This document shows, piece after piece, positions 12,757 to 60,308 of a DNA stretch of 64,000 bases. Source of the stretch: Methanomethylovorans hollandica DSM 15978 (lineage in GTDB: Archaea; Halobacteriota; Methanosarcinia; Methanosarcinales; Methanosarcinaceae); contig NC_019972.1 of NCBI RefSeq assembly GCF_000328665.1, positions 1 to 64,000 on the forward strand, read 5' to 3'. The notes beneath the pieces are model-generated. The model did not search any database and had not been told where the DNA came from. It saw only the letters and a list, made by a program, of their open reading frames with translations. Positions within the stretch are counted from its first letter, which is position 1. Each line of letters opens with the position of its first letter. The position numbers and the translations under genes were made by a program.

Positions 12757-12772
12757 CCGGTGTTAGCTACCA

Positions 12773-13074: not shown

Positions 13075-13265
13075 TTTATTCCTCATTCTTTTGTTTGGCT
13101 TTTGGCTAGGTACAAAAAGACAAACTACAAGAGTGTCACAAGTGAACTCTATCAAAAAAGAATAATTGGAAAGTGCGGAACTCTACGAGTATAAGTAGAG
13201 TTCCTGTTTGTTTGAGCGACAGAAGAATGTATGCAATTTTTAGAAAATAGAAATGGAGTTTTGCC

Positions 13266-13425: not shown

Positions 13426-13544
13426 TATGTGTTGGTTGGTAGTTACAAATTTTCCGAAGCATGAAGTGGACAGAAAATATTCTACCGTGGACCGGATAGA
13501 TAAATTTCATACCACTTCGATATCATATTACTACTCAAACTATA

Positions 13545-15064
13545 TGAACTACTCCCTCCTAATCACTTTGCAGTGATTTGAGGAAGGAGCTTCCTACGAG
13601 TATTCGTATCATTTCGGTATCATTCTGGTTGGAATAACCCCGATCAACAAACCTGTTTGTCGTAGATTATCAATTGTGTTTTGATAGCTTGTCCACAAAG
13701 CATTATGTTTGAAATACCTCAAGAGAATGTTCACAGAACTATTGTAGTCTCTATCAAGAATGTTTCCACAATAACCACATTCATATGTTCTGTCATTAAG
13801 TGACATATTCTTGATAGTTCCGCAAATACAACATTTCTTTGAGGTATATGATTCATCAATTCTTATTACTCTTTTACCCAAGCTTTCAGCTTTGTAGGTT
13901 AAGAATTGAGTAAATCTTCCTATATGTCCTGAGTTATGAGTACTTCTATGAATGCTTTTTTCATATCTACTATCCTTTGGTTCACTTGAAGCCATTTGCT
14001 TTACATCAAGTTTACCTATGATTATGGTATTAGCATCCGTATTATCGATAATATTTCTGGTAATTTTGTGCTGGTTATCTTTTAACTGATTAGATGATTT
14101 TCGCTTTATCTTACCAAGGTTGTTATGAAGCCTTTTCCATTTTCTGCTGTTCTTCTGGCAATGATCTCTTCTGGATTGAATCTGTTGGATCTTAGGTTCC
14201 CAATACTTGTCTGGTCTCCTATTCTTCAACTCTGTGAATTTTCCGTAAGAATCAACCATGCTTTGTTTCGAGACACCAATATCGATAGCAAGATAAGAAT
14301 CATTGTTATTATGCTTAACATCAAGTACTTCATAAGTAATCGAAATGTAAAAGTCCTTGTCTTTCTGATAGATATTAACCTGAACTATATCAGTAGCCTT
14401 GCTGAATATTTTGTCTTCAATCAAAGTAGCAGGTAATTCGAACTTTAGTGAAACTCCAGATGGATGATTGTGTGAGAAGCCAATGTATACTTTATCCTGT
14501 TCAGAATACTCTACTTCTGGTTTGTGTATCCTGGTATCCATGGATTTGCTCACAATAACATAACCATTAGAATCAGATATTTCAAAACCAGACTGGTTAT
14601 ATAGCATAGTAGTAAAATATTTTCTACCTTTGAATCCAGGTGGTTTTGCTTTCTTATCCTTGTTATTTCTCAAATTGAAGAACGATTTGTAATTATTATC
14701 AAGACACTTCAAGGTTCCCTGTAATACCTTGGAATACACCCATCTATAATCAGGAAACTTTTTCTTAAGTTCAGGCAACTTATTCTGTAGATTAACATAA
14801 CCTATTCTAGTCTTATTTTTGTAAGCATCCTGACGTTCTCTCAGACCAAAGTTATAGATAAGTCTACATTTCTCAGATAGATCCCATAGAACAGATTTTT
14901 GTTCTGGAGTAGTATCTATCTTAATTGGTAACGTCAACAGCATATGAAAAAACCTATATCTTATAATGAGACTAAGATATTTAAGCATTAGTATCTAATG
15001 ATAATTATTATTGAATAAGACGCATTCATCTCCCAGCTTACGCAAGGAGACTTCTGCTTAATAT
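13545..15064 (-). mobile_element. IS200/IS605-group element with tnpB only, copy 2
   Basis: About 1.52 kb, inserted after TTTAAC (15065-15070). Left border TAAGCAGAAGTCTCC; the right end has a hairpin AATCACT GCAA AGTGATT and GTAGTTCA. The hairpin sequence differs from copy 1 while pairing is retained. It has landed in the middle of a hairpin array, with tRNA-like units left on both sides. Confidence 0.8.
13609..14943 (-). CDS. tnpB: TnpB RNA-guided nuclease, copy 2
   Basis: 444 residues from MLLTLPIKID, intact. It has the same layout as copy 1: RuvC-I aspartate in YLAIDIGVSKQ, glycine in IIIGKLDVKQM, alternative glutamate in IRIDESYTSKKC, zinc ribbon CCICG ... CGYCG and the final LDRDYNSS. 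The two proteins are nearly identical in the C-terminal half and diverge more in the middle, where the surface probably contacts the guide RNA. The divergence means the copies did not arise by very recent duplication. An in-frame extension of 15 residues at the start has no binding site. Confidence 0.93.
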   Translation of the reverse strand: MLLTLPIKIDTTPEQKSVLWDLSEKCRLIYNFGLRERQDAYKNKTRIGYVNLQNKLPELKKKFPDYRWVYSKVLQGTLKCLDNNYKSFFNLRNNKDKKAKPPGFKGRKYFTTMLYNQSGFEISDSNGYVIVSKSMDTRIHKPEVEYSEQDKVYIGFSHNHPSGVSLKFELPATLIEDKIFSKATDIVQVNIYQKDKDFYISITYEVLDVKHNNNDSYLAIDIGVSKQSMVDSYGKFTELKNRRPDKYWEPKIQQIQSRRDHCQKNSRKWKRLHNNLGKIKRKSSNQLKDNQHKITRNIIDNTDANTIIIGKLDVKQMASSEPKDSRYEKSIHRSTHNSGHIGRFTQFLTYKAESLGKRVIRIDESYTSKKCCICGTIKNMSLNDRTYECGYCGNILDRDYNSSVNILLRYFKHNALWTSYQNTIDNLRQTGLLIGVIPTRMIPK

Positions 15065-27352: not shown

Positions 27353-27562
27353 TTATGTTAATGGAAGTTCTTCATATAGTGCTTCAACAAAGGCTCTTGA
27401 AGGGTTAACCAATATATGCTCTTTTACATACATAAGGGAATAGAGAGAAGCAACTAGCATCATTAACGCTAATGTCATATTTGCAAATGTCATATATGCA
27501 TCAAGTAGTGTTCCAGTTGCAACGTTGAGTTCCATTTTATCTGAAAACAAACTTATCACCAA
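27353..27562 (-). CDS. Small membrane protein, last gene of the operon
   Basis: Up to 69 residues with one long hydrophobic stretch (AYMTFANMTLALMMLVASL). The start is uncertain: a TTG/GTG overlapping the previous stop codon, or the ATG at MELNVATG (27535). It ends the leftward series of small membrane proteins. No MFxxK start is visible. Confidence 0.55.
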   Translation of the reverse strand: MVISLFSDKMELNVATGTLLDAYMTFANMTLALMMLVASLYSLMYVKEHILVNPSRAFVEALYEELPLT

Positions 27563-27861
27563 GCATGAGGAGTATAATATTCTTCAATTTCTCGCATATC
27601 TTCCCAATATGCAGGTTCTGGTACATCTTCAGGTTCAACTAAATATTTGTTTACATTATAGTCAGCAATTAGCTGGTTTGTTGCTTCATCAGCTTGATTT
27701 GCAGTGGTGGTAGCTGTTTCACTTAAGCCAGTATGAACAGTTGTGCTGGTGGTACCTATCAAGGAAAGGATCGTTCCTGCAATAAGAACGAATATCACGA
27801 TACTGACAAATGTTATCTGTAATCGTGGGCTTTTCATGAGAACATCAAATGGGCTTGTCAT
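27556..27861 (-). CDS. Single-pass membrane protein
   Basis: 101 residues: short N-terminus MTSPFDVLMKSPRL, one membrane segment (about 15-38), then a threonine-rich and acidic outer part ending YYTPHAW. The second gene from the end of the operon; its stop overlaps the next start. It is the only member with a large acidic C-terminal region. Confidence 0.65.
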   Translation of the reverse strand: MTSPFDVLMKSPRLQITFVSIVIFVLIAGTILSLIGTTSTTVHTGLSETATTTANQADEATNQLIADYNVNKYLVEPEDVPEPAYWEDMREIEEYYTPHAW

Positions 27862-27869
27862 CTTCCACC

Positions 27870-28094
27870 TTAATATTCAAATGCTTTTTCTTCAGTAATT
27901 ACTCCGATGATACTGTTGACCATCGTGTTTGAATTGTCAACAAGAGCTCCTTGTACAGCGGTATAAGCATTGATAGACACTTGTATCAGTGCTAATGCTA
28001 CAGCTATTCCAATAATGGTTGGAGCAAGCGATATTAGATCAACATATATATTGAGTAAATAATTAGAGGATAGTTGCATTTTGCTCTGGAACAT
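27870..28094 (-). CDS. MFxxK small membrane protein
   Basis: 74 residues, MFQSKMQLSSNYLLNIYVDL, then a hydrophobic segment (about 25-45) and a polar tail with NSNTMVNSIIG. GTGAGG precedes the ATG and gives a false in-frame start upstream. Confidence 0.65.
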   Translation of the reverse strand: MFQSKMQLSSNYLLNIYVDLISLAPTIIGIAVALALIQVSINAYTAVQGALVDNSNTMVNSIIGVITEEKAFEY

Positions 28095-28099
28095 TATCC

Positions 28100-28288
28100 T
28101 CACGTACCAATGATATCTGCAGCATAATCAATGAATCCTTGTGCAACTGTAGTAGGAACAGTCAGGTATAATTCCGTAAGGACTACTAATGCACCCATGA
28201 AACCAAGTATGATGGGTAATACTCCGATTACTTGTTTATACAATCCAATTACAGGATTGTGCATCAGAGTCATCTTAGGTCCGAACAT
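28100..28288 (-). CDS. MFxxK small membrane protein
   Basis: 62 residues, MFGPKMTLMHNPVIGLYKQV followed by two adjoining hydrophobic stretches and a short tail FIDYAADIIGT. Start and stop overlap or abut the neighbours, typical of a tightly coupled operon. Confidence 0.65.
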   Translation of the reverse strand: MFGPKMTLMHNPVIGLYKQVIGVLPIILGFMGALVVLTELYLTVPTTVAQGFIDYAADIIGT

Positions 28289-28491
28289 TAAAATACCCCT
28301 GAAGTTTCTACAATATCGAGCACTCTTGTTGTAGATGCGGTGATCATATCATTATATCCACCAGTCTGTTGAGTAATAAGTGGATCTGCACCAGAATTCA
28401 TTATTAAATATACGATTACACAAGCAATTGCAACTACAGCAATATATAATGCAAATCTAATTCCAGCAGGAATGATTTCATCAATGATCAT
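28288..28491 (-). CDS. Small membrane protein without the MFxxK start
   Basis: 67 residues, MIIDEIIPAGIRFALYIAVV with one membrane segment and a polar tail (GGYNDMITASTTRVLDIVET). It overlaps the genes on both sides by 1 to 4 bases. Confidence 0.65.
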   Translation of the reverse strand: MIIDEIIPAGIRFALYIAVVAIACVIVYLIMNSGADPLITQQTGGYNDMITASTTRVLDIVETSGVF

Positions 28492-28721
28492 GGACCAAAT
28501 TCCTCAATAAGTTCATTTGTTGTTTCTGTGGACGTTCCGATAATGTCTGTTACTCCATCATTAGTTTCATCCAGGATATCTACTCCCCCGTAGTATGCCT
28601 GCTCATATAACAACAATAAGATACTTACTCCAGCAAACGCTCCAACCAAATAGGGAGCATATTTTCTGATGATCTCCAGTGGGCTTCCTTCAAATGCCAA
28701 GAATACTTTTGATGTAAACAT
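28488..28721 (-). CDS. MFxxK small membrane protein, EGSPLE subgroup
   Basis: 77 residues: MFTSKVFLAFEGSPLEIIRK, then YAPYLV, one membrane segment and an acidic tail with DETNDGVTD. AGGAGAG precedes the ATG. It is closely related to the next two upstream products by the shared EGSPLE-[IV]-x-R-[RK]-YAP segment. Confidence 0.75.
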   Translation of the reverse strand: MFTSKVFLAFEGSPLEIIRKYAPYLVGAFAGVSILLLLYEQAYYGGVDILDETNDGVTDIIGTSTETTNELIEEFGP

Positions 28722-28730
28722 ATACTCTCC

Positions 28731-28964
28731 TCATGGCACTATTCTTTCAAAGATTCCGTCTGCAATATCCCCAGTATCGTCAACTGTATCGGCAGCTGCA
28801 TCACCAGCACCCTCAAACATATCATCACTGGCATTAAATCCAATATAATATATTGCAGCAATTACACCAACGGCAGTCATTGCTCCAATTATTTGTGGAG
28901 CATACCTACGAAGCACTTCCAGAGGGCTGCCTTCAAAAGATAGATTTATTTTTTCTCCAAACAT
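28731..28964 (-). CDS. MFxxK small membrane protein, EGSPLE subgroup
   Basis: 77 residues: MFGEKINLSFEGSPLEVLRR, YAPQII, a membrane segment with AAIYYIGF, then an acidic tail rich in D and A. GAGGAATAC precedes the ATG. A tandem paralogue of its downstream neighbour. Confidence 0.75.
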   Translation of the reverse strand: MFGEKINLSFEGSPLEVLRRYAPQIIGAMTAVGVIAAIYYIGFNASDDMFEGAGDAAADTVDDTGDIADGIFERIVP

Positions 28965-29020
28965 TTTGTATTCCTCTAGTGGTGATATTTTGATAAAAAT
29001 TATTTTGATAAAAATTTAAG

Positions 29021-29266
29021 TTATGGAACAACTTCTAGATAGACTTCTCCCACTGCTTCTCTTGCTATTCGCGTATTAGCATCAACAGAATCAGCAGCAG
29101 CATCTCCTAATTCATCAAGTGTTTCATGAGATCCTCTAAAAGAAAGATAGTACAAACTAACTACAGTTCCAACCGCTGCCATAACGATTAAGAAGTAAGG
29201 GGCATATTTTCTCATTACGTCAATGGTATTTGATTCAAATGTTAGTTGGCATTTTTTCGTGAACAT
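29021..29266 (-). CDS. MFxxK small membrane protein, ESNT subgroup
   Basis: 81 residues: MFTKKCQLTFESNTIDVMRK, YAPYFL, membrane segment ending LYYLSF, then a tail with LGDAAADSVD. It shares ESNT and RKY with the first gene of the operon and LYYL[SG]F with several others. Confidence 0.75.
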   Translation of the reverse strand: MFTKKCQLTFESNTIDVMRKYAPYFLIVMAAVGTVVSLYYLSFRGSHETLDELGDAAADSVDANTRIAREAVGEVYLEVVP

Positions 29267-29297
29267 AAAAATGGAGAAGATTTATTCAACATCTGTA

Positions 29298-29456
29298 CTA
29301 AATTAATCCAGCGAACTGGATATATCGGGAAAGATCGTATGAGTATGGAAGTATTCTCGAAGCCAGAGTCAGGATTTGGAGTAGTACTGCAAACGAGGCA
29401 ATAATTACTATCACGTAATTGAATACGATTCTCCAGCTTGTTTGAAACATTTCCAT
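29298..29456 (-). CDS. Short membrane protein (MFQ start)
   Basis: 52 residues, MEMFQTSWRIVFNYVIVIIA, one or two hydrophobic segments, no acidic tail. The second methionine would give an MFQ start as in its relatives. It begins 5 bases after the preceding stop codon. Confidence 0.5.
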   Translation of the reverse strand: MEMFQTSWRIVFNYVIVIIASFAVLLQILTLASRILPYSYDLSRYIQFAGLI

Positions 29457-29460
29457 TTGA

Positions 29461-29661
29461 TCACTCTACGATCTGTTCTGTCAGTGCATCGATAATGGTT
29501 ACAGTAGATTCACCAGTTGCTTCTACCATTGTGTATACTTCATTCAGTATACGTTCAAGCATTGCTGCTCCTGCTGCAAGCAATATGAATGCGTATCCAA
29601 CTCCTATCAGATCAGTGTATAGCTGGATAGGGCTGAATAACTGACATTTTTTCCCGAACAT
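29461..29661 (-). CDS. MFxxK small membrane protein
   Basis: 66 residues: MFGKKCQLFSPIQLYTDLIG, one membrane segment (YAFILLAAGAAML) and a tail rich in threonine and acidic residues. Confidence 0.7.
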   Translation of the reverse strand: MFGKKCQLFSPIQLYTDLIGVGYAFILLAAGAAMLERILNEVYTMVEATGESTVTIIDALTEQIVE

Positions 29662-29679
29662 ATTGTTACCCAGGTACGA

Positions 29680-29958
29680 TTACCATGCTCCGAAGGCAGC
29701 CTCACCAGAACCGTCAAGACCTGCGTCAATTGCACTCTCAGCAGATGTTTCAAGTGCAATACGGTTATTATCTGTTAAGGTGCCGGTTGCGGCGTCGTAG
29801 CCGTCGCTAACCATTTCAGAACCTTCTGTGAAACCGAGGTAGTACAGTGCGGCCAGGGAACCGACTGCGGCTCCTGCTACGATCAGGTATGGTCCGTATT
29901 TTCTGAGTATATCAACAGTGTTGCTTTCTGTCTGCAAGCTAATTTTCTGTCCAAACAT
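29680..29958 (-). CDS. MFxxK small membrane protein, first gene of the operon
   Basis: 92 residues: MFGQKISLQTESNTVDILRK, YGPYLIVAGAAVGSLAALYY and an acidic, alanine- and glycine-rich tail. AGGTGAATAAA precedes the ATG; the GTG three codons earlier is part of it. The gene is clearly more GC-rich than its paralogues, especially 29780-29860. As the first gene it may be the most abundant subunit (pilin-like or coat-like); this is inference. Confidence 0.75.
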   Translation of the reverse strand: MFGQKISLQTESNTVDILRKYGPYLIVAGAAVGSLAALYYLGFTEGSEMVSDGYDAATGTLTDNNRIALETSAESAIDAGLDGSGEAAFGAW

Positions 29959-30413: not shown

Positions 30414-33400
30414 ATGTTTGATAATGATGACTGGCTGAATTTCCAATTTGGAAATGGAATTGGCGACCTATCTAATTTCGATGATGAAATGGATGATATG
30501 GAATCTGCCCTGAATGAAGAAGAACCAAATGGGGGGACTTTTAAATCAACAGTAAGTGAATTTTCCCATTTTGAAGGAGAGATGTATAGCCGGGCTAGAA
30601 GGATTGTATCAGGAATTGTGGAGTCATCTGAATTGGTAATCAATGCAGCTCCCGAAGGTATTTTTGATAATATTTCAGATGCTATAGATTCATGGAGGGG
30701 AGAAAATCCATGGGAAGGACAACAAACCGAAAGCATGAAGAAGTATACTTTGGGGCAGCAGCAAATAAGAGTTGCTTCTCTTGCAGTAGGAGATGTGACT
30801 GGCCAATTCTACAGGGATATTAACAATGGTTTTGGTATATCACAGCACTTGATTGACGTAAATAATTTTCAGGAACGTGCAACTGCTCTTGGATTAACCG
30901 TGGGGGTTGCAGGAGTTCTTGTATTTGGTTTGGAGGCTGCAGTGGGTTATGGTACACTTGTAGCAATAGGTGCTGCTTCTCATGCGGCAATTCAGGTTAC
31001 GGGTTTTGGAGTAGGAACAAACGAAATGGCCCGTGAACAAAAAGAAGAGGATGAAAAAAAGAAAAATACTTTTGAACAGGGTGGAACACGATATTATATC
31101 TCAAGAACTGAATCTGATTCTCAATATAATAGCATTGTAGGAATGGAAGGGTTCCATGATATTGCTATTAATGGAAAAGTGATTGATACGGTTCATGGAA
31201 AGAAAATCGAACGTTCCTTTTATAATGCACAAGGGGAAAAAATTGGTTCTTATAAGATCGATATACTCAGAGATTATATTCATGAAGAAGAAAACCAAGA
31301 AGGCATTGAGAATTTATGCCAACAATTGGGTGTAGAAAAGAGTCATGAAATATATGGAGGAGTAAGCCAGTTACAAGAAGGATCGGTGATTAGAACCGAA
31401 GAACGACAAATTTCGGTTAAAGTTGATTCTGTATATGTTTCTCACGGTGATGGTGAAAATTATTTTATGTACAGTTTTCAGGGGAGAAAGTCAGGTGAAA
31501 AAGTTCCGATTCAAGTGGTTGGTGCTGATTCAGTTGGTAATGAATCCTTTACTCATTATATTTCAGAAAAAGGACAGCTTATCTTTTCTGAATTTAAGAC
31601 AAAACAGGGAGGAACAAAAAGCAAATTGGATCCTTCTTTAGCATCGATTCAGCTAAGTTCTTTTCATTATGTAATGGATGGAAATCTTGATGATCCATAT
31701 CAATGTGTACATGGATCGCTTCTAGCAGGTGATGCCGGTCTTGCAATGCTGGATTCGCTCCATGCACAGGTCGAATTGAATCATTATAGAAAAGTGATTA
31801 GTGAGTTGCACAGTTCATCCAGGTTGAATGCAGGGCTAATGTCTGCTTTTCAATCTTTTACTTTTTCAAACGGGGGAGAACATTCCGTGTTTGATGCAAT
31901 GGGATCCATTATAGAGGCTCCTTTTACAGGCCTTGAGATGTGCATTGCCGAAAAACGAGAAGGTGTAGCAAATTTCATGGTTGGAACGAATACTCTTGTA
32001 AATTTAATTTCTACAGGTCCAATAGCAGGATCAATTGCTGGCAAGATTCATACTTCAATATCTGGTGCTTCGGAGAGTATGACTAATGCATCTCAGAGAT
32101 TTTCAGGAATAGCTAGTGGAGTAGGTAATACATTTTCCGAAGCTGCTAGTAGGTCAGGCGGTTATTCTTTTAAATCTGTAACTGAGGCATTTGAGGAAAT
32201 AAAAGATGATATTCTTGAGGCGATAGATAGGTATGTTAGTTCGAGTTCTAATTCATTTACTAAAAAAGTGTATTTTAGTGAGGAAATAGTCGGACCATCA
32301 AAATCGTTATCAACAATAATAACGGAACAAATAAAAAATGGTGCACACCGGATGGTTGCTCCGGTAATGATGTCAGCAAGTCTCAGTTTAATTAGTGGAA
32401 ACTTTGAGGTAAGTGTTTTAAGTTATATAGACAGAAATCTTCGTAATGCAGAAGAATTTATGTTTGGATCTGGTTATAAAGCATTGATAGGAACGATTGA
32501 GGAGAATACATATAATGTTCCTATCCTTTCTGGAATTGTATCAGGAAGGGCACTAACGATGGTTGCTCAGTCTGTATCGTTCAAAGATGTTAGTCGTGCT
32601 ATTAGAAATAACGAGCTTCGAACAGCTAAGATGATGGAATCTGGTGTGAATTATTCATTTGAAAAGGAACAATTCAATGCTGTAATGGAAGATATTAAGA
32701 AAGATTTAGTTGAACAAGGGGTTTCTGTTGATCTAAGGGATATCACCAATAATGGGACAATATATGTGCGGAAGATTGCATCTAGCGATGGTTATGTAGA
32801 AAGATCTCAGGTAATTGTCACTTCTGATGTCAAGGATCTTGCAGATAAGATCACAAAAAGTAGAAATGCTGTTCTTACAACTGAAGCAGTTGAAATCCAG
32901 AATACGTTAGCATCGAAGTATGCAGCCGCAAGGTATCTGTTTAAAGACTCTTCTTCGTTGGTAACAACTCTATTTGATAATCCCGACCTAAAAAATGATC
33001 TTGGTATTAAACATGGTATTTTTGACGATAGAGTCCTTTTTTCGGAATTGGTAAAAGGGCTTAGTGAAGGAGAGTACAAATCAAGGCTTAGTACATTATC
33101 CGGTAATTTTAATAAGATCAAGGAATTGTTTTCCTCTGATTCTGAATTAGTAAATTCGCTACATAGTGATACTACTGTATCAAAAAAGATTGGAGTTGTT
33201 TTTGATAATAGTAGTCAGGCATATGGTATCAGGGATGTTGTCAATAACTGTTATGACGGTGATTGGTCAAAATACTCAGCAAGTCCAGAGGAATGGAAAC
33301 AGAATGTAAATAATCTCGCATCAGTTTCTCAAATGGATCCAGAGACAATAAGAGAAAAAGTTGTTAAATTCGTGGTTATGGGACACGGTGGATTGGATAA

Positions 33401-33944
33401 TACGAACAATATTACTGATGCCAATGTTGCTAGATATATGGATGCTATGACTGAAAATGAGATAACTAAAAATGCCGAATGGGATGAAACGAATTATTCC
33501 CGTATTCAATCTAAAGATATCCGTATTGTCAGTACAGGCAGTACAAAGAATTTCTGGAGTTCAATGGCAAGGTTATCTATATTCGGTACAAGAGATCCCT
33601 TTACTACAGAAGGGAGATATACTATGGAATCTGCAACCTTAAGTGCCCATATTCATAATAACGATGTTTCAGCGCAGATGTTCAGTTCCATTGATGCTGG
33701 TATGCCTACAAGTATTCTTGGAATGGCAAGAATGGCATTTGGACATGATTTCAATAAAAGTGATTGGTCCGAAAACCTTGTTTTTAGTGATTTTGCAGGC
33801 ATTAGAGATAATGTAGAGTTAGATGACAGGTTCTTTACTCATTCGAATGACTTTGATGAAACAACTGATACAACTGGATATGTTCTTGGACAAGGTTCAA
33901 AAGCAGTTAATCCAAATACTAGTGGAGGAAAAGATAGACCATGA
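30414..33944 (+). CDS. Very large uncharacterised protein with a hydrophobic segment
   Basis: 1176 residues, no recognised domain. The first 60 residues are very acidic. Residues 157-200 are hydrophobic and glycine/alanine-rich (GLTVGVAGVLVFGLEAAVGY), able to form two membrane helices. A second small-residue-rich part is around 515-560. The remainder is soluble, mixed alpha/beta, with few cysteines. There is no signal peptide. Size and layout would fit an exported effector, a tape-measure-like or a scaffold protein. Its stop codon overlaps the start of the next gene (ATGA), so the three genes to 35190 form one operon. Confidence 0.7.
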   Translation: MFDNDDWLNFQFGNGIGDLSNFDDEMDDMESALNEEEPNGGTFKSTVSEFSHFEGEMYSRARRIVSGIVESSELVINAAPEGIFDNISDAIDSWRGENPWEGQQTESMKKYTLGQQQIRVASLAVGDVTGQFYRDINNGFGISQHLIDVNNFQERATALGLTVGVAGVLVFGLEAAVGYGTLVAIGAASHAAIQVTGFGVGTNEMAREQKEEDEKKKNTFEQGGTRYYISRTESDSQYNSIVGMEGFHDIAINGKVIDTVHGKKIERSFYNAQGEKIGSYKIDILRDYIHEEENQEGIENLCQQLGVEKSHEIYGGVSQLQEGSVIRTEERQISVKVDSVYVSHGDGENYFMYSFQGRKSGEKVPIQVVGADSVGNESFTHYISEKGQLIFSEFKTKQGGTKSKLDPSLASIQLSSFHYVMDGNLDDPYQCVHGSLLAGDAGLAMLDSLHAQVELNHYRKVISELHSSSRLNAGLMSAFQSFTFSNGGEHSVFDAMGSIIEAPFTGLEMCIAEKREGVANFMVGTNTLVNLISTGPIAGSIAGKIHTSISGASESMTNASQRFSGIASGVGNTFSEAASRSGGYSFKSVTEAFEEIKDDILEAIDRYVSSSSNSFTKKVYFSEEIVGPSKSLSTIITEQIKNGAHRMVAPVMMSASLSLISGNFEVSVLSYIDRNLRNAEEFMFGSGYKALIGTIEENTYNVPILSGIVSGRALTMVAQSVSFKDVSRAIRNNELRTAKMMESGVNYSFEKEQFNAVMEDIKKDLVEQGVSVDLRDITNNGTIYVRKIASSDGYVERSQVIVTSDVKDLADKITKSRNAVLTTEAVEIQNTLASKYAAARYLFKDSSSLVTTLFDNPDLKNDLGIKHGIFDDRVLFSELVKGLSEGEYKSRLSTLSGNFNKIKELFSSDSELVNSLHSDTTVSKKIGVVFDNSSQAYGIRDVVNNCYDGDWSKYSASPEEWKQNVNNLASVSQMDPETIREKVVKFVVMGHGGLDNTNNITDANVARYMDAMTENEITKNAEWDETNYSRIQSKDIRIVSTGSTKNFWSSMARLSIFGTRDPFTTEGRYTMESATLSAHIHNNDVSAQMFSSIDAGMPTSILGMARMAFGHDFNKSDWSENLVFSDFAGIRDNVELDDRFFTHSNDFDETTDTTGYVLGQGSKAVNPNTSGGKDRP

Positions 33945-34879
33945 CAGGAACTTACCGTGGAGAGAGTTATGATCAATGCATTGCTCAAACGAATGCTCGC
34001 TTTGAAATGTGCAGGAATATGTTCATTCAGAATGTCAATTATGTATCAGCTATCTTAAGTAATCCAGAAAACTTTGGAGTATCAGGGACTGATATTGAAC
34101 AATATATTAAGGAATGTATTGATTACTATAGAATTGTTCTTAACACAGAACAATACATTTCACTTGATGGTATCAAGGAAAGCATAGAGAAAGCGATAAA
34201 TCCCCAAAGAGTTCGAGAGATCAATGACAAAGCTTTAGATATGGAAACAGCGAGAACAAATATTGATCAGACTATCGTTGATTGCATTGCTGGATTAATT
34301 GGTATGATTGATACTGAAGAAGAGAAAAAGGTATACGAGTATGCTCTTAATGCAGGTGTATTCAAGGAAAATGATCTATTTCTGACAACCAATGAATCTT
34401 ATGAACGATCATATCTAAAGAAGAACGAAAAAATAGCTGACCTTTTCTTTATGAGTGGAGGGATTTCAGTATCAAGTCTTGATATAAAGACAAGCAATCT
34501 TAAATTTAGATATAATTCGGATTCTATGACTGTTGGATTCAGTATGATGACTCATGGGCGACACGCTACTTTTCCAGAGGTATATTGCAATTGTCTTTTC
34601 ACTGGTCCCTGTCAACTAAGTTTAAGGGGAACATTTGTCGTCAATAATGATAGTGTATTTGGAGGCAGTCCATTTAAGTATAGAGATTGGTTTGTTTCTC
34701 CAAACAAAACCTGTGGAGCAATGATGTGCTTTGATGAGATCCTCAGAGAAAAATATCTATACGTAACCTATTGTAGACTGTTATCATCGGGCATACACAA
34801 TCTACAGGAATATCTTAATAGCGTTGCTTATGAGTTCAGGCAACTGCTTAGAGAAAACCAATTCAATTTATCGTGGTGA
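33941..34879 (+). CDS. Uncharacterised protein, second gene of the large-protein operon
   Basis: 312 residues, soluble, starting MTGTYRGESYDQCIAQTNAR. The first half is helical, the second half (about 160-280) is strand-rich with several cysteines (VYCNCLFTGPCQL, NKTCGAMMCF). No family recognised. It overlaps the upstream gene by 4 bases and is translationally coupled to it, so it probably acts with that protein, for example as a partner or protective protein. Confidence 0.65.
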   Translation: MTGTYRGESYDQCIAQTNARFEMCRNMFIQNVNYVSAILSNPENFGVSGTDIEQYIKECIDYYRIVLNTEQYISLDGIKESIEKAINPQRVREINDKALDMETARTNIDQTIVDCIAGLIGMIDTEEEKKVYEYALNAGVFKENDLFLTTNESYERSYLKKNEKIADLFFMSGGISVSSLDIKTSNLKFRYNSDSMTVGFSMMTHGRHATFPEVYCNCLFTGPCQLSLRGTFVVNNDSVFGGSPFKYRDWFVSPNKTCGAMMCFDEILREKYLYVTYCRLLSSGIHNLQEYLNSVAYEFRQLLRENQFNLSW

Positions 34880-35225: not shown

Positions 35226-36662
35226 TCAGAATCCTAATATCGTATGACCTATAAAATATCCAGGTGAACCGATTACACAGACAAGTATAAATGCAAGTGT
35301 CAGTTCTACAGCAAACGGTTCGTTTCTCAGGGTTTTGATATTTTCAATTCTTTTACTGATATTGTCCATATCTGCTTTTCCAGTATGCTCTACTATTTTT
35401 GTAAATGATAAAGAGTATTCTATCATTATAGAGAACATTATAAGCATTGCTGGCATTGCTAAGATCCCTAGACTGTTATTATATACAGCAAATATAGTAT
35501 CTTCAATTAAGAGTATGAAAGATCCTATTACGAACGATAATACGATAATTTCTATAGATTCGTTTTTTATGTTTTTGGTCTTAGCTATGTCTGATTTACG
35601 TGTTAGAATACATCTTGCGGTATAGATTGCTGTCAAACCGATGAACCAGTTAAGAGGGAGTATAAGATATCCAATCAGAGATACAGTTGCTAGTTTAATC
35701 GATACTGGAATAGTTCTGCTAAATGGTTTGAACCAACTATTTCGTAGAAGAACTGTTGTAATAAACATCAATATCCCAATTATTGTAATCAAACCAATTT
35801 TAGTTGTAATTTCGGTATTTTGAATAAGGTGATTGATAATTATTTTTTGTATTAGACCGTATGAAATTATTATTCCGATCATTACACTGAAATATAAAGA
35901 AACAGTGTTTTTAATAAAAGGCTTTATAATTTCATTATCGTGTTTTTTCAGATTATAATATATCCTGAATGGTGTAAAAATGAACATCAATAGAACAGCA
36001 TAGAAAATTGCTCCAAATCCTGCAGTTGGATCCATTTCAAGGTACAGGCATGTTCCTGTAATCATCCATATTAACATTACATCTCCGTTACCAATACTCA
36101 ATTGGCGGAACTGCATTCCGACAGGGGTTGTGAAATTTAGTAATATTAATGCCCTTGTGAGTGTTGAATCTCCTAAATATTTTATCAAGAATGCACTAGA
36201 TGCTATAATTATTGCTATATACACAGCTGACCAGATTATTTTTACAACAGGATTGCTTGCTACAAGGATTCTAATCATCTGTTTTGGAATAGTCCATGCC
36301 ATTAGAGGAAATGCGAATAAAATTAAGGGGATGACCGGATTTGTAGTTTTTAACAGTATAAAGAAAATATATATTACTGGAGCGAATATACCCATAGTAT
36401 ATGATATTGTTGTTCTATCAAAACTCATCCCTGAGATGTAGATTGTTATTGCCGTAAAGACTGCGCTTATGAATAAACTCTCACCTATTATAAGGGTAAT
36501 AGGTAGGTTTTGTCCACTATTTGATATTGTACTCATTGCGGCAATGAATATAAGTACCGCAATCCCTGGAAGCGTATTATAATCTCTTGTCTTGATATCA
36601 TTCCATGATACAATTATGCAAAAAATTGCGACAATTGCTGTCAGGATCATTGGTGCAAACAT
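35226..36662 (-). CDS. A24-family prepilin peptidase with extended membrane domain
   Basis: 478 residues and about 12 membrane segments. The two catalytic aspartates are visible: D22 in VSWNDIKTRDYNTLPG and D194 in SIGNGDVMLIW (the GxGD motif). Archaeal enzymes of this family are usually 200-350 residues; here a second membrane half of about 220 residues follows. It would process type IV pilin-like precursors, which fits the TadC-like and GspE-like genes further on. AAAGGAGATT precedes the ATG. Confidence 0.85.
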   Translation of the reverse strand: MFAPMILTAIVAIFCIIVSWNDIKTRDYNTLPGIAVLIFIAAMSTISNSGQNLPITLIIGESLFISAVFTAITIYISGMSFDRTTISYTMGIFAPVIYIFFILLKTTNPVIPLILFAFPLMAWTIPKQMIRILVASNPVVKIIWSAVYIAIIIASSAFLIKYLGDSTLTRALILLNFTTPVGMQFRQLSIGNGDVMLIWMITGTCLYLEMDPTAGFGAIFYAVLLMFIFTPFRIYYNLKKHDNEIIKPFIKNTVSLYFSVMIGIIISYGLIQKIIINHLIQNTEITTKIGLITIIGILMFITTVLLRNSWFKPFSRTIPVSIKLATVSLIGYLILPLNWFIGLTAIYTARCILTRKSDIAKTKNIKNESIEIIVLSFVIGSFILLIEDTIFAVYNNSLGILAMPAMLIMFSIMIEYSLSFTKIVEHTGKADMDNISKRIENIKTLRNEPFAVELTLAFILVCVIGSPGYFIGHTILGF

Positions 36663-36693
36663 TGTAATCTCCTTTTTGAATAATCAAAGTAAT

Positions 36694-36727
36694 AAAAGGA
36701 TCCCCCAACAAATTATTATGGGGGATC
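36694..36727 (-). terminator. Intrinsic-type terminator after the lipoprotein gene
   Basis: GATCCCCC 36699-36706 pairs with GGGGGATC 36720-36727 around 13 bases; the minus strand continues with a U-run. It separates the lipoprotein gene from the peptidase gene. Confidence 0.65.
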
Positions 36728-36748
36728 TTTTGTTTCAAGGTTTAGAGG

Positions 36749-37450
36749 TTATGTAAAGGAACCTATGAAACTATTTGGAATGTTTTCGGTTGTATTTATT
36801 GATGCTGATGCTACTTTATCAAATACGTTTTGTGTATTTTGCGTATTTGATGATGGATATATTTGCTTGTTTATATCATCTACACTAATAATTGTTTCAT
36901 TAGTTCCAAGTTTTTGTTGTATTGCTTCACATATACGGTATGAATCTGCATACAATGTAGAAAGATCATTTCCACTGAGCAACACAACAGTTGATCCGAT
37001 TGGCACTACATAATGCCAGCTGACATCATTGCTGAACTGATATGCAGGAATGGATCCAAGCAGGACGACTTTTCCTGTAACAGTTCCAAATATCCCGATT
37101 TCTCTTTCAGGGTTTGCAATCAGTTTTTCAGTGAATTTCTGACAGCCTTTAACTGAAGCAAAGTCATACTCCCATCCTGAAGTTTTAGTTTTAGGATGAC
37201 GAAGTGAAATGATCCTTGTTATTCCATAACTTGTTAGGCTATTCAGAGTTTCTGCGCTATTATTTCCAACTTCTCTAAGGGTAACACTTTTTGTTTCTAG
37301 TTGTTGTAAGAATGCCTGAGAATTATTCTTTACATTAAGAACTGGTTCTTCAGTGGTTACATTGTCTTTATTTTTGTCTGTACATCCACTTAAGGGAGCT
37401 ATAATGAGTAAAACGACAAGAATAAGAAGGAAACTCTTTTTTGTTGTCAT
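36749..37450 (-). CDS. Predicted lipoprotein
   Basis: 233 residues. The N-terminus has a basic start, a hydrophobic stretch and the lipobox APLSGC, so C23 would carry lipid and anchor the protein outside the membrane. The mature part is soluble with no recognised domain. CGGAGGG precedes the ATG. The stop of the upstream membrane gene overlaps this start by one base, so they are coupled. Confidence 0.75.
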   Translation of the reverse strand: MTTKKSFLLILVVLLIIAPLSGCTDKNKDNVTTEEPVLNVKNNSQAFLQQLETKSVTLREVGNNSAETLNSLTSYGITRIISLRHPKTKTSGWEYDFASVKGCQKFTEKLIANPEREIGIFGTVTGKVVLLGSIPAYQFSNDVSWHYVVPIGSTVVLLSGNDLSTLYADSYRICEAIQQKLGTNETIISVDDINKQIYPSSNTQNTQNVFDKVASASINTTENIPNSFIGSFT

Positions 37451-37848
37451 TATAACCCTCCGTTTCTTAATGCATTTGGATCTCTTTGGATCTCAAAAAT
37501 TATGTAAGCATTTATTATCCATGCGATTATTAAGCCATAGATATACATTCTAGATATCATTAAAAATGTCAGAGCATGGATGATATGCATAGCAATAATT
37601 GTACCATAACTAATTTGCATTTCTATATCCATTGCATATTTCATGATGCACATTGTTCCCATAAATACGACAAAATTTCCTGTTATGAGTCCAATCCATG
37701 AAGTAGATGGGGATATTATTATTGTACCGAAACTGATTAGCATAAAAACAGCTAATCTGAATCCAGGTCCTAGTGTTAATCCATTTGTTCCATATTCGAT
37801 TGTATAGGCAGTTCTTTTTCCGAGTACGTATTCTAGACAGTCTGACAT
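37450..37848 (-). CDS. Four-helix membrane protein
   Basis: 132 residues with about four membrane segments after a polar N-terminus of 30 residues (MSDCLEYVLGKRTAYTIEYG). GAGGAGGTC precedes the ATG. It belongs to the membrane operon 39.6-36.7 kb. No family recognised. Confidence 0.65.
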   Translation of the reverse strand: MSDCLEYVLGKRTAYTIEYGTNGLTLGPGFRLAVFMLISFGTIIISPSTSWIGLITGNFVVFMGTMCIMKYAMDIEMQISYGTIIAMHIIHALTFLMISRMYIYGLIIAWIINAYIIFEIQRDPNALRNGGL

Positions 37849-37857
37849 GTGACCTCC

Positions 37858-38481
37858 TCAAGAGTACAATGGGGCGCATTCGAATGTTTCTTTATGTGCG
37901 TTATGTAGATATCTTACAATCAGATGTGATGCAGTGCATGAGAATTGTATTGTAAGGATGTCAGCGGCACATTTATAGATTGCAGCATAAGCGATTCCTG
38001 TTGTGAATGATAAATTGAGGTTTCCTGCAACTAATACATATATCACTCCATATTCAATTGAATTCATTATTGTTGCAATTACCATGTAATTTCCTGCATA
38101 GGTGATGATATCTGGAAGATATATTCCCTGGAATGTTTTTGTTCTAAATGCTTCAACTGATAAAGTAAGTCCAACTAATACTGAAGCAAAAATTAAACTA
38201 TATATATCAGAATAATTGACTGTCTGGGTTAGAATCTGTATTATCTTTGGGATGAATACAGCGAGTGAAAATAGAGCCCATGAGGTTAAAGTTGTTCTAA
38301 GAGCTAATTTATCAGGTATATCTTTATTTGAAATGAACAATACTCTTCCAAGGATAATTGTTCCTATTGCTAGTAAGCTTGTAATTGCACCTATAAGTGG
38401 AGATAATGATCCAAGTATAATCCCTACTATAGTTGTAATGAAAAGTATAATAGCTGGTCTTTTGTTTTCAACTGCTTTCAT
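37858..38481 (-). CDS. Multi-pass membrane protein
   Basis: 207 residues and about six membrane segments. The chosen ATG (MKAVENKRPAI) has GGTGAAA upstream; the longer TTG/GTG starts overlap this site. It lies between a pilin-like protein and another membrane protein. Function unknown, probably part of the membrane apparatus. Confidence 0.65.
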   Translation of the reverse strand: MKAVENKRPAIILFITTIVGIILGSLSPLIGAITSLLAIGTIILGRVLFISNKDIPDKLALRTTLTSWALFSLAVFIPKIIQILTQTVNYSDIYSLIFASVLVGLTLSVEAFRTKTFQGIYLPDIITYAGNYMVIATIMNSIEYGVIYVLVAGNLNLSFTTGIAYAAIYKCAADILTIQFSCTASHLIVRYLHNAHKETFECAPLYS

Positions 38482-38494
38482 AAATTTCACCAAT

Positions 38495-39001
38495 TTAGAT
38501 GTCGTATAGCTGTGAGGTTACATCTGATAATGCTTTTCCAAGGCCAACTAATTGTGATTCAAATGGCATTTGGTTATGAGCTTCACTTATTAATGTGCTG
38601 GCACCATCTGCAGCATGGTAATCAATTACTTCATATCCTTCTGTGGTGGATTTCAATATCATCCATCCTGGTCCTTGTACGGTACCGGATTTAGTTCCAC
38701 GGTAGTTTCCAATTACCTTTTCATCAGAAGCCGGTGATCCCACTGCCCGAAGGCCTGCGTATCCTGAAGATCCAGAATGTATAACGAGTTCATATCCCGC
38801 AGGTATTGGGGTCTTGGACATATAGTTTAGTCCAATATCATTATATGTGTCAAGCACTTGGTAGTGCGTGGCTGTTGTATATATTTGAGATTGGACTAAC
38901 ATTTGGGAAATCGGATTCACCATTCCTACGCTATTTGCAAAAGCCGTCAGGAGAATGACTGCTGCGAAGATGTCCTGAAGTATATCTACTGTATTAGTCA
39001 T
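38495..39001 (-). CDS. Exported pilin-like protein
   Basis: 168 residues: MTNTVDILQDIFAAVILLTA, one N-terminal membrane helix, then a polar, glycine- and serine-rich outer domain (IHSGSSGYAGLRAVGSP). This is the layout of a pseudopilin, though no clear A24 cleavage site can be read. CAGGAGAA precedes the ATG, which overlaps the end of the GNAT gene. Confidence 0.6.
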   Translation of the reverse strand: MTNTVDILQDIFAAVILLTAFANSVGMVNPISQMLVQSQIYTTATHYQVLDTYNDIGLNYMSKTPIPAGYELVIHSGSSGYAGLRAVGSPASDEKVIGNYRGTKSGTVQGPGWMILKSTTEGYEVIDYHAADGASTLISEAHNQMPFESQLVGLGKALSDVTSQLYDI

Positions 39002-39581
39002 AATTCTCCTGAGGGGTGTTTTTTCTAATCCATTTATTCATAGTCTCTATAGCTATTGGGTGAGTATTTCTCATCCGGATGTGGTATGCTACTATTGCAA
39101 GATAGCTTATTGTCTTTTCACGTAGACTGAATTTATCCAGAATAATAGTATCACTACATTCATCACAAAGGACAGTAGGTATTTGGATTTTTTCGTATTT
39201 TAATATATAGTAGTAATGATTCATATCTGTGCCGATGCATTCAAATCCATTTTTCTCATAGAAAGCTCTTGCTTTGTCAGAGAATTCAGATTTATTAGAT
39301 ACTGTTACAACTATATCTTTAGATTCAGCAATAGCAAATCTCTTGATCTGGTTAATGGTTTCGGTACTATGTCCTTTTCTTTGCTGGAGGCTATAGAGTA
39401 GAATGATATATATTTGATCAAGTTTTGGATTACTGTATATATATCCCACAGATGATGCATAACTAAATCTTTTTGAGATTAACGGATAAAAAGCATCGAA
39501 AGCAAGTTGCATGAATGAAGGGGAGGAGTAAATCTGCTTTGCAGCAGTTATACCCTCTTTGGTTTTACTCAAATTATTCAT
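38994..39581 (-). CDS. GNAT-family acetyltransferase
   Basis: 195 residues. The acetyl-CoA-binding motif QQRKGHSTETI and the C-terminal ARAFYEKNGFECIG are typical GNAT features in residues 60-125. The last 60 residues are an extra helical region with a CDEC pair. It overlaps the genes on both sides and so is translated with the exported proteins; it might modify one of them, but the substrate is unknown. Confidence 0.8.
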   Translation of the reverse strand: MNNLSKTKEGITAAKQIYSSPSFMQLAFDAFYPLISKRFSYASSVGYIYSNPKLDQIYIILLYSLQQRKGHSTETINQIKRFAIAESKDIVVTVSNKSEFSDKARAFYEKNGFECIGTDMNHYYYILKYEKIQIPTVLCDECSDTIILDKFSLREKTISYLAIVAYHIRMRNTHPIAIETMNKWIRKNTPQENYD

Positions 39582-42564
39582 TATTCTCGCCTCGATTGAT
39601 AATTTCCATTATTTGATCGATATTCTCATTCTCATCAGTCGTTTCATCTGTTTTGTCTTCTAGTCCCGGTAATGTGTAATCCTTTTTCTTGACTGGAATG
39701 GTTTTAGTCTCGTTTGCTCCAAGGCTACCCTTTAACGTGAAACCTTTTTCACCAATGTTTACAATCATTACTTTATTATCAGTCAAAGTTGGGGGCACGA
39801 TGTTGGTATTGAAGGATATATTCTTCTCAAATATAGCTGGCTTCTGACCTCTATTGCTAATAACAATATTGTATTCTGCAGTTGCTTCTGTTATCTTCAT
39901 CTTGAAGTTTGGCAATCTCTTGTACCAGAACTTGTACGCCATTGCTCCGACCAGAAGAACGGCTGCAAGACAAGCTACTACTGTAAATGCTGTTTTCTTC
40001 AGTTTATTGCTCTCATATTCTTTGACAATAGATTCGCATTGTTTCCTGAAGTCATCAGAAACTTGAATATTGTTATCTACAATTGTTTTTGCTAATGTGT
40101 ATTTTGTACTTGGTGCTTGTAAAAGTGGTATTAGGTTTTTGCTATCATATGGTATAGTATAGTTGCTCTTTTGTGCATCAGGCAATGAATCATAGATACC
40201 CATAAATGTATCTATTTGGGTAGTTAATTGTACCAGATTATTTGTATTTACCTGATGTGTTGAATCATCATTTGGCCATGATTCGATTTCTTTGAGTAGA
40301 TCCTGTATTGCTGGTACGATAGGATCATAGTACATATCGACATACTGCATCCTAAGCTCTTGAATAAGTGTGTTGTTTGATTTGGCTATTTCAACAGCAT
40401 TACTATTCAATAGTGTGTGTATTGTATAGCTTTGCTCTTCTGTGATCAGTGGATTCTGCGTTAAAGCCGATAGATCTGCTGTCGTAATTGGAATTGTGTA
40501 TGGACTATACATCCTTTCATTGATCAGGTTATTGATTGCTACATCTGCAGCGAGAATTGATGCAGTACCATACGATTGTTTGATAAGGTATTCAGCATTT
40601 GTATTTTCATTCCAGTTTGCTATAATTGCTGATTCTTCATCGATGTTCGGATTCTCTGATATCCGATTCAATACGTTTTTTAGTGTTTCGATATCTACAC
40701 TCTTTGTATAGTAGATCTCTACAGAGGGCTTATTATCAGAATCATATGATAGAAATACTTTCTTATGTGGAATAGACATACACTGGATTCTTGCTTCCTG
40801 AATAGCTGCAAGGTACACTGCATTTCTGATGTTAGAATTCTTAATACTGTTCAAGTAGAAATCTGCTTTTGCTAGGTATAGATCTGCTAGTTGATCAGAA
40901 CTATACATTTCTACAAAGTCTGGATAACTGCTAATTGTTTTAGATAATCTTTCGTTGGCGTTGACGTAAATTGCACAGAACTGATTGAGTGATTCGATTT
41001 CAGCAGTAGAATTAGAATCTTCGTTTTCAACTTCTTTCAGAGAAAGAGTTGTTGGAGATGCTGAATATAATCCATTACTGTATTTAAGTTCTTGATTATA
41101 TGCACTTAAATATAGACTGCTTGCAACAGTATCTATCAGATTCCAATCATAATATCCGTTTGCAAATGGAGCAATTCCATTGTAGTAATAGTCTGATTTT
41201 AAATATACTGAATTGATATTATTCTCTTCTTTGTAATTATCAAGGTTTGTACTATAATCCTTTTTTAATTCCTTGAGTTTAGTTCGCTTATCTCGAAGTT
41301 CCTTAAGTTCTTTTTCTTCGTTTGCATCAAGGACCAAATCTTCTTTTGAAGCATTTGCTTCTTCAGGAGTAATTATGTTGTCTCCCTGATTTTGGAGTTC
41401 CTTTATCCTGGCATTAATGTCATACAATTCTTTTTCTATTGTCCTAACAGCTTCATTTTGAACTACATAGTTATTGAACAATACCCATTCATCACTCGTC
41501 ATAAATGGTTCATTTATTTGATATGCTGAGTATATGACAGAACTCCATATCATATAGCTCTCATGCTTTTGGTATGAGAGATCTATGAGTTTATCGAGTG
41601 GTACAGTTAAGTAAGTGACAGATACTTTGTCTTCGTCTTCTTCCTTTGTCTGGTTTCCTTCGATTAATGCAAAACTTTCAATCTTAAATGATGAGGACAT
41701 CTCATATTTATCAAGAATTTCAGTTAATCTTTCAGTATTCTCTTCGAGAGAATCTTCAATTGCTTGATATCTTTCGACTTCTTCATCTGAACCAACGTAT
41801 TCAATAGTTCCATCAGTATTCTTTATAATCTCAATTAGATCACTATATTTCTCGAGCTCTTCGGTGAGAACTTTATTTTCTTCAGTTAACAGTTTGAATT
41901 CTCTGTAATCTTCTGAAGATTCGCTGGTTTTATCCATTTCAAACTGATTATAGTCAGAGAATGCAGAATAATACTGCTTTTTTAAATATGCTTCATCTTC
42001 TGCACTTTCTATAATGAACTCGTTTTTAGCAGTTTCGTGGAAATCATTTACGTCCTTGTATAAAGTTGCATCATATTCTGTTTCCTGTTCAATTACATAT
42101 CCTTTTAGGATCATTTGCTTCGTTAAAATTGTTTGTAATGATGATCCAATATTTGTTTTTCCTATATTGATCCATGCTTTACTGATAATGTCTTTTTCTT
42201 CATCAGAAGCCTGTTCATTTGTTTCATAGCTCTTTGTTAAGAGAGCATTTGCAAGAATAAATTGTATTAATGCAGTATCATCATGATTCTTGTTAATTAC
42301 CCGATTTTGATTATCAATGGTAGTTGGCATATATCCATTTTGTAGATAGACTTCTGCTAATCGGGAATGCATTGAGTAATAGTTCTTGTAAATCACTGAT
42401 AAATCTTCTTTTGGAGCAACCGATGCTGCAACAGCCATTGCCATTAAATCATTTGTAATATCAATGGTATTTGTATTTTCAGTGGTTTCTGCGAGACATG
42501 GCTGTAAGAAGGTTGATAAATAAATTAAAAGAACAAAAAAAATAAAGAGGTTATTGTTTTTCAT
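39574..42564 (-). CDS. Large exported, membrane-anchored protein
   Basis: 996 residues: signal peptide (MKNNNLFIFFVLLIYLSTFL with AETTEN after the cleavage region), a long charged exterior with coiled-coil parts (about 215-290 and 380-440), a membrane helix near 895 (VVACLAAVLLVGAMAYKFWY) and a cytosolic tail of about 90 residues. AAGGAGGACCC precedes the chosen ATG; an extension of 18 residues would overlap the ParA gene. No family recognised. Size and topology suit a receptor, adhesin or structural element of the envelope-spanning apparatus. Confidence 0.75.
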   Translation of the reverse strand: MKNNNLFIFFVLLIYLSTFLQPCLAETTENTNTIDITNDLMAMAVAASVAPKEDLSVIYKNYYSMHSRLAEVYLQNGYMPTTIDNQNRVINKNHDDTALIQFILANALLTKSYETNEQASDEEKDIISKAWINIGKTNIGSSLQTILTKQMILKGYVIEQETEYDATLYKDVNDFHETAKNEFIIESAEDEAYLKKQYYSAFSDYNQFEMDKTSESSEDYREFKLLTEENKVLTEELEKYSDLIEIIKNTDGTIEYVGSDEEVERYQAIEDSLEENTERLTEILDKYEMSSSFKIESFALIEGNQTKEEDEDKVSVTYLTVPLDKLIDLSYQKHESYMIWSSVIYSAYQINEPFMTSDEWVLFNNYVVQNEAVRTIEKELYDINARIKELQNQGDNIITPEEANASKEDLVLDANEEKELKELRDKRTKLKELKKDYSTNLDNYKEENNINSVYLKSDYYYNGIAPFANGYYDWNLIDTVASSLYLSAYNQELKYSNGLYSASPTTLSLKEVENEDSNSTAEIESLNQFCAIYVNANERLSKTISSYPDFVEMYSSDQLADLYLAKADFYLNSIKNSNIRNAVYLAAIQEARIQCMSIPHKKVFLSYDSDNKPSVEIYYTKSVDIETLKNVLNRISENPNIDEESAIIANWNENTNAEYLIKQSYGTASILAADVAINNLINERMYSPYTIPITTADLSALTQNPLITEEQSYTIHTLLNSNAVEIAKSNNTLIQELRMQYVDMYYDPIVPAIQDLLKEIESWPNDDSTHQVNTNNLVQLTTQIDTFMGIYDSLPDAQKSNYTIPYDSKNLIPLLQAPSTKYTLAKTIVDNNIQVSDDFRKQCESIVKEYESNKLKKTAFTVVACLAAVLLVGAMAYKFWYKRLPNFKMKITEATAEYNIVISNRGQKPAIFEKNISFNTNIVPPTLTDNKVMIVNIGEKGFTLKGSLGANETKTIPVKKKDYTLPGLEDKTDETTDENENIDQIMEIINRGENNE

Positions 42565-42574
42565 AGGGTCCTCC

Positions 42575-44008
42575 TTACTTTTTAGTTGAAATTGGTTTAT
42601 CTCCAATTTTCTTACCAAACAAAGACTTTACCAATCCTAATTTACCAGTTGTTTTTGGTACGTTTTTCTCTTTTTGTTTGTCGTTGTTTTTTGATGGAGT
42701 TTCAACTGGTTTTGCGATCATACGCTTTTTCATCATTTCTTCATAGAGATTTTTTGGCTCATTAAAGATCCTGTGTATATCCTTCTGTTCGATTCTAGTG
42801 CGATTAAGAACATGTAGTGCCGTTATCCTTAACGGATAATCTAGACAGGTATTTGTTCCAATGACAAGTTTGTTTCTGTATGATAGGTTCGCCATCGTTC
42901 CATCGACATCCATAGGAATTACACTTAGGAGAGGTAATTGACTTTTTTGAATTGCAGCAACAGCTTCATCTAACTGATCGGGAAGTACGCTATTGAGGAT
43001 AATCCCCCTAACCTGTATTTCGGACATGTATTTTTTCAGCATGTCGATTTCAACATTAAGGTTACTTGGAGTAGCAACTGCAATCATTTCAGTGTTGCTC
43101 ATGCTAATAAGTACATTTTTTAAGGTGTTGCTTGTGGCTTCTGTGTCATAGAATACATGACTGAATTTCAGCTGTAGACATCTGTTTATTTCATCCATTT
43201 CACGGCTGATCTGAGACGGGTGACACATATCACTGATAATTGCTCTACCTTTCGATGGTACAAGTGATAATGTATTCACAGGAAGAGGAGATGTAGGAGT
43301 TGACCGGTATCCCAACCTATTGAATATGTATGCAATAGGAAGGCCATAATTGAACTTAAAAATAGAAGGATATATTTCTCCAAGGAATTGTCTGTTTGCC
43401 TCCATCCTGAATTTAAGATCGCTTCTCATCTTTTCTCTATCATCAAGTTTTTGTAAGGTCTCAGGCCTTAATTTGAAGTCTGTATAATTCAGAAGTTGTA
43501 AATGTTCTTGTGTTATTTCGTTATTGTATAGATCTTCATGATAAAGGACATTAGTTAATCCAATCGCCAGTGCCTTTGTCACGATTCTCTGTTGCGTCTG
43601 ATCAACGACTCCTTCAATTCTATCGCGTTGAAGGATTATTTTTGTTTCTTCCGGGAAGTGAGTGTATATATGATATGAAAGTGGGTCATTAAGATTGCAT
43701 AATCTTGCTGCAAGTTCTAATGGTTCTACGATTTCATCTGTATCAATCATTGCAGTCTGATTTTTAAAGATGCCGTTGATTATGTTCTCTGTGGTAATCA
43801 CCATCTCCGATTTTTCAAGTTGTTCAATCTCATCATTTTTTGCAGATGGAATTAACATCTTGGTTGCGGTCTGATTTCTTGTATCTCCATCAACTAAGAG
43901 TGTTGGATCCTCTTTAAGATGGGATATATAGGATGTCACGTTTACGGCAATTGTGGTCTTCCCAGATCCTCCTTTTTCGGAGGAAAACACTATCGATGCA
44001 TTTGTCAT
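42575..44008 (-). CDS. parA: ParA/MinD-family ATPase
   Basis: 477 residues from MTNASIVF. The deviant Walker A KGGSGKTT is at 12-19, switch I VDGDTRNQ at about 39-46 and switch II FYDTEAT near 285. An insert of about 150 residues between switch I and switch II makes it longer than typical ParA (about 250-300). The basic C-terminal tail is lysine-rich. AGGTGACGAGA precedes the ATG. With the next upstream gene it is a candidate partition pair. Its place in a membrane-protein operon also allows a role in positioning the apparatus. Confidence 0.85.
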   Translation of the reverse strand: MTNASIVFSSEKGGSGKTTIAVNVTSYISHLKEDPTLLVDGDTRNQTATKMLIPSAKNDEIEQLEKSEMVITTENIINGIFKNQTAMIDTDEIVEPLELAARLCNLNDPLSYHIYTHFPEETKIILQRDRIEGVVDQTQQRIVTKALAIGLTNVLYHEDLYNNEITQEHLQLLNYTDFKLRPETLQKLDDREKMRSDLKFRMEANRQFLGEIYPSIFKFNYGLPIAYIFNRLGYRSTPTSPLPVNTLSLVPSKGRAIISDMCHPSQISREMDEINRCLQLKFSHVFYDTEATSNTLKNVLISMSNTEMIAVATPSNLNVEIDMLKKYMSEIQVRGIILNSVLPDQLDEAVAAIQKSQLPLLSVIPMDVDGTMANLSYRNKLVIGTNTCLDYPLRITALHVLNRTRIEQKDIHRIFNEPKNLYEEMMKKRMIAKPVETPSKNNDKQKEKNVPKTTGKLGLVKSLFGKKIGDKPISTKK

Positions 44009-44026
44009 TCTCGTCACCTGCTGAAC

Positions 44027-60300: not shown

Positions 60301-60308
60301 GGTGAAAC

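Follow-up and report, generated by a model that had tools for sequence, protein, structure and literature searches.

Organisation of the small-protein operon

The window, that is the whole stretch of DNA analysed, comprises bases 1-64000 of a 285,109-base replicon of Methanomethylovorans hollandica DSM 15978, the second contig of the assembly being 2,428,904 bases long. Between positions 27353 and 29958 it holds eleven open reading frames in a row (g1 to g11), all on the minus strand and tightly packed, with gaps of no more than 56 nt and several overlaps. The products are 52-101 aa long; a hydrophobic span is predicted in every one of them and an acidic tail in most, and nearly all are predicted to have one membrane helix. 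The genes are judged to be real because they are conserved gene for gene in a second genome, and the preliminary description of eleven consecutive tiny genes of 50-100 codons, mostly encoding one helix, is borne out by both the reading frames and this conservation.

At the sequence level the proteins form two paralog families and a set of singletons. Family I consists of four MF-starting paralogs, namely g6 (28488-28721, 77 aa, MFTSK...RKYAP), g7 (28731-28964, 77 aa, MFGEK...RRYAP), g8 (29021-29266, 81 aa, MFTKK...RKYAP) and g11 (29680-29958, 92 aa, MFGQK...RKYGP), the last being the first gene of the operon; identity to g7 is 31-44%. Family II is made up of g3 (27870-28094, 74 aa, MFQSK), g10 (29461-29661, 66 aa, MFGKK) and a gene at 58931, with g4 (28100-28288, 62 aa, MFGPK) more distantly related. 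The singletons are g1 (27353-27550, 65 aa), g2 (27556-27861, 101 aa, one helix and an acidic tail, non-MF), g5 (28288-28491, 67 aa, non-MF) and g9 (29298-29456, 52 aa, with the C-terminus LSRYIQ).

The MFxxK start

Eight of the eleven genes (g1, g3, g4, g6, g7, g8, g10 and g11) encode proteins which begin with MFxxK. The seven starts counted originally all hold, and the number rises to eight because g1 is best started at a TTG codon with a Shine-Dalgarno site (GGTGAT) upstream, which gives it the N-terminus MFSDK. The recurrences proposed at 45060, 58931 and 61117 are all seen, the first of them with a GTG start and a GGAGG site. Among the replicon genes of at least 120 aa, phenylalanine at position 2 (F2) occurs in 8 of 191 and its combination with lysine at position 5 (K5) in 2 of 191, one of which is the gene at 61117 itself; the excess of MFxxK in the operon is far beyond chance. 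The eight occurrences are not independent, since four belong to family I and two or three to family II, and the tag therefore represents about four independent lineages, which by a hand estimate is still well above chance.

In the second genome F2 is retained in all six orthologs of MF-starting proteins and K5 in one of the six; the g1 ortholog begins MFARR and the ortholog of 58931 MYSAR. With F2 constant and K5 mostly lost, MFxxK is best described as a loose tag. Better conserved than K5 are R-x-Y-x-P in family I and Y-x-[DE]-[LF]-[IL] in most of family II. The shared start is genuine, but both the loss of K5 among the orthologs and the common descent within the two paralog families weaken its interpretation as a targeting or assembly signal.

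Topology and predicted structure

Charge and hydropathy suggest that most members cross the membrane with one helix, the N-terminus lying in the cytoplasm and an acidic tail outside. An AlphaFold model of g7, built from a six-sequence alignment, shows one continuous helix of 62 residues (14-75) at moderate confidence (pLDDT 68.8). Hydropathy and this model both agree with an N-terminal hydrophobic helix followed by a predicted extracellular part. Foldseek returned no match to the g7 model, which is unsurprising for a lone helix. A class III cleavage site of the [KR][GA] type before the hydrophobic domain was found neither in g1-g11 nor in the pilin-like proteins tested, the pattern being of the FlaFind type. 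The absence of a motif for A24 peptidase cleavage, as first reported, is thus true of all eleven proteins, but a membrane protein with a GxGD signature is encoded 5 kb from the operon.

Neighbouring genes

The 12-span protein in question (35226-36662, minus strand) was recognised by motif inspection as GxGD peptidase-like; a conserved Asp (D...R) and GNGD are present in both orthologs, and a Pfam scan gave no match. Between it and the operon lie two conserved neighbours on the plus strand, a divergent 1176-aa protein (30414-33944) and a 312-aa protein (33941-34879). Further along, the minus strand encodes a pilin-like protein with an N-terminal helix and an ectodomain (38495-39001), a 1014-aa protein with a signal segment and a C-terminal helix (39574-42618) and a ParA/MinD-like ATPase (42575-44017). 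The 1014-aa product is strongly acidic and was found solely in the two elements. On the plus strand there follow a 95-aa membrane protein beginning MFGKK (45060-45347) and a 649-aa polytopic membrane protein (51281-53230) that has a 49% ortholog and is a candidate platform or channel; against T2SSF the latter gave no Pfam match and a weak hhalign result, and no T2SSF/TadC/FlaJ platform was detected in the module by either method.

Two ATPases complete the set. The first (54614-57706, minus strand, 1030 aa) is of the CedD/VirB4/HerA type: it matches the NCBIfam CedD model at 3.3e-26, below the equivalog cut-off, and DUF87 above the cut-off, indicating that a VirB4/HerA-type core is present. The best NCBIfam model for this methanogen plasmid protein is the CedD of a crenarchaeal DNA-import system. 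An AlphaFold model of it made without an alignment reached a pLDDT of 33 and was set aside. The second is a VirB11/FlaI-type secretion ATPase (61624-64000, continuing to 64119, plus strand), which matches T2SSE over the cut-off and belongs to the PilB/FlaI/VirB11 superfamily; its ortholog, recognised by eye in the second genome, scores 7.9e-16 with NCBIfam FlaI and 7.5e-15 with VirB11, both below the equivalog cut-off. A VirD4-type coupling ATPase was searched for in the plasmid's own genome, where PF02534 gave nothing over the cut-off.

The secretion ATPase is adjoined by a pilin-like operon on the same strand, and within this operon sits the family II member MFNKK (58931-59143), followed by three pilin-like proteins of 195, 178 and 267 aa with an N-terminal helix and an ectodomain (59155-61112) and by a 163-aa pilin-like protein beginning MFQKK (61117-61608). 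Compared with the orthologs of g3 and g10, the 58931 protein gives z values of 6.5-7.2, and profile A7 recovers both. The small-protein operon itself lies approximately 30 kb away from the ATPase operon.

A second genome carrying the module

A profile search with family I found homologs in one other genome only (G187), whose ATPase contig matches JAUSPM010000141.1 of the MAG Methanosarcinaceae archaeon E21_metabat.bin.6. On its contig L036 an Orc1-type gene is found together with the divergent large gene and a form of the operon that has nine genes, their order unchanged. Ten of the eleven operon genes are matched there by sequence, with pairwise z values on the matched diagonal of 8.7 to 26, as for g1 (L036:1608-1808, z 12), g4 (2399-2587, z 16), g5 (2598-2798, z 12), g9 (3074-3244, z 13), g10 (3241-3441, z 26) and g11 (3475-3741, z 19), while g2 is matched by position alone (1828-2136, z 1.97). 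Family I has two copies here versus four in the window, the three genes g6-g8 facing a single one. The 1176-aa protein (L036:3979-7662, 27% over 1209 columns) and the 312-aa protein (L036:7637-8593, 33%) follow. Contig L037 matches window positions 35226-44545, and L022/L023 match 45353-64119. In addition to the operon, the second genome retains the pilin-like set, the ATPases and the gene for the ParA-like protein, spread over three contigs that are not joined.

The small proteins tested have no relative in Pfam, NCBIfam, PHROG or the PDB, and none further was found in viral (including IMG/VR contigs), plasmid and genome collections. Depending on the query, the module was absent elsewhere from samples of 150 genomes of the order, 238 of the class or 393 of the phylum; G187 was probably not drawn in the phylum-wide and 150-genome samples, since no match to it appeared there. 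In the searches made, the same two genomes alone yielded family I members, the 1014-aa protein and CedD-type matches of full length. The module markers are missing from five other genomes of the genus, as expected of an accessory element, and at three loci of HerA-type ATPases examined in other Methanosarcinaceae genomes the module is absent. In other genomes profiles A6 and A7 gave weak matches, with E values between 3e-4 and 8e-3, that cover the profiles in part; these were treated as chance, and the one inspected, in L052, falls in a longer multi-span protein. A7 matches in the PDB (e.g. AcrB, E ~0.9) were likewise attributed to chance.

Possible function

The operon proteins most likely form part of a pilus-like, DNA-moving machine of a kind previously just sketched in these archaea. 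A multi-subunit membrane structure had been proposed, and a pilus or DNA-transfer type is its best reading because family II reaches the secretion-ATPase operon and the neighbourhood is conserved in the second genome; the specific options named at the time fare less well. VirB2/CedA1-like pilins and TedC are two-helix proteins (PMC9905601), and such a hairpin is not predicted here: each operon protein has one hydrophobic segment and g7 is modelled as one long helix. With a probability slightly above even, the products of the operon serve as pilin-like subunits with a single helix in a plasmid-borne DNA-transfer or type IV pilus-like machine, which would combine type IV pilus parts (the FlaI/VirB11-type ATPase, the pilin-like proteins and the GxGD-peptidase-like protein) with the CedD/VirB4/HerA-type DNA translocase. 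The MF end would stay in the cytoplasm, the proteins would insert into the membrane without class III cleavage, and their helices may line up against one another in a hetero-oligomeric filament or pilus base, its assembly powered by the VirB11-type ATPase and the DNA moved by the CedD-type ATPase. A bolder and rather unlikely extension is that they represent an uncleaved class of single-helix pilins with a short cytoplasmic MF tag, of which at least eight kinds would enter a mixed filament for methanogen DNA transfer.

Alternatively, the proteins could be structural parts of a membrane-embedded transfer complex, VirB3-like or a ring, with no extracellular filament. The linkage evidence serves this explanation as well as it does the pilin reading, and the differing singletons g1, g2, g5 and g9 resemble fixed subunits more than one repeated pilin; it is nevertheless unlikely, as the several copies of family I in both elements are frequent for pilins and a long single helix with an acidic tail resembles filament subunits. 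Improbable to a greater degree is a reading that takes in the second of the original options, coat proteins of an enveloped or spindle-shaped particle: membrane or coat proteins of a vesicle or virus-like particle that carries the plasmid. Enveloped archaeal viruses commonly carry sets of diverse tiny membrane proteins, and the divergent 1176-aa protein has no assigned identity, but the neighbourhood, scanned with PHROG and Pfam, showed no recognisable capsid or virion hallmark, IMG/VR viral contigs hold no relatives, and the secretion ATPase and pilin-like genes are co-conserved with the operon. That an unrelated small-protein operon lies near the machine by chance, its common start being paralogy plus loose composition, would fit the orthologs mostly lacking K5 and the adjoining replication genes but is very improbable given that family II is present in both operons and MFxxK is rare elsewhere on the replicon.

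Relation to known systems

The predicted pilus-like machine is reminiscent of bacterial Tad/Flp pili, which also combine tiny helical pilins, larger pseudopilins, a TadA-type ATPase and a ParA-like protein with a GxGD peptidase, matched here by a peptidase-like candidate, but it has no cleavable Flp leader, no E5 and no detectable TadB/C. To our knowledge methanogen conjugation is largely undescribed, and a conserved, defined gene set with candidate pilins would make the question directly testable. Thaumarchaeal ICEs, in which VirB4, TadC, FlaI, a prepilin peptidase and pilins occur together (PMC6563490), share VirB4-type and FlaI-type ATPases, pilins and a prepilin-peptidase-like protein with the module; unlike them, the latter has no VirD4 match, TadC/VirB6 are undetectable by sequence and the small-helix operon is extra. 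The Ced and Ted systems (PMC9905601, PMC11868833) resemble it in the CedD-closest ATPase, the small membrane proteins and, for Ted, the ParA-like gene, Ted loci containing VirB4, ParA, HerA and in some cases Rad50 (PMC9905601); they differ in that the CedA1/TedC pilins have two helices versus one here, and that a VirB11-type ATPase is present here. Archaeal conjugative plasmids have been reported without recognizable pilus proteins (PMC9905601).

A unique predicted type IV pilus-like or secretory system with a VirB11 homolog of low FlaI similarity was described on plasmid pMETHO01 (Makarova et al. 2014, PMC4158269), and the 61624 ATPase locus is very probably the same; a term search found no other literature on pMETHO01. 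The available part of that text contains no description of the eleven-gene operon, of a link to a CedD-type ATPase or of a second element. Bursts of type IV pilus evolution in M. hollandica were noted in a 2016 census (PMC4858521). The ATPase locus was thus very probably pointed out already in 2014; the operon of eleven genes, together with its conserved partners, appears to be described here for the first time.

Elsewhere on the plasmid, a 326-aa protein has an RNase HII domain in its C-terminal part (9109-10089), and TnpB-like ORFs with a split IS transposase were recognised by eye at 11259-14988 and 53498-54300. ORF segments at 1745-2636 are repeated, with common stretches like WDYLQIYIGNEVST. 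Beyond the window, a 635-aa AAA/Rad50-like gene (L005:4025-5932, replicon 68025-69932) resembles by eye a 644-aa gene (L022:283-2217) that adjoins the module in the second element.
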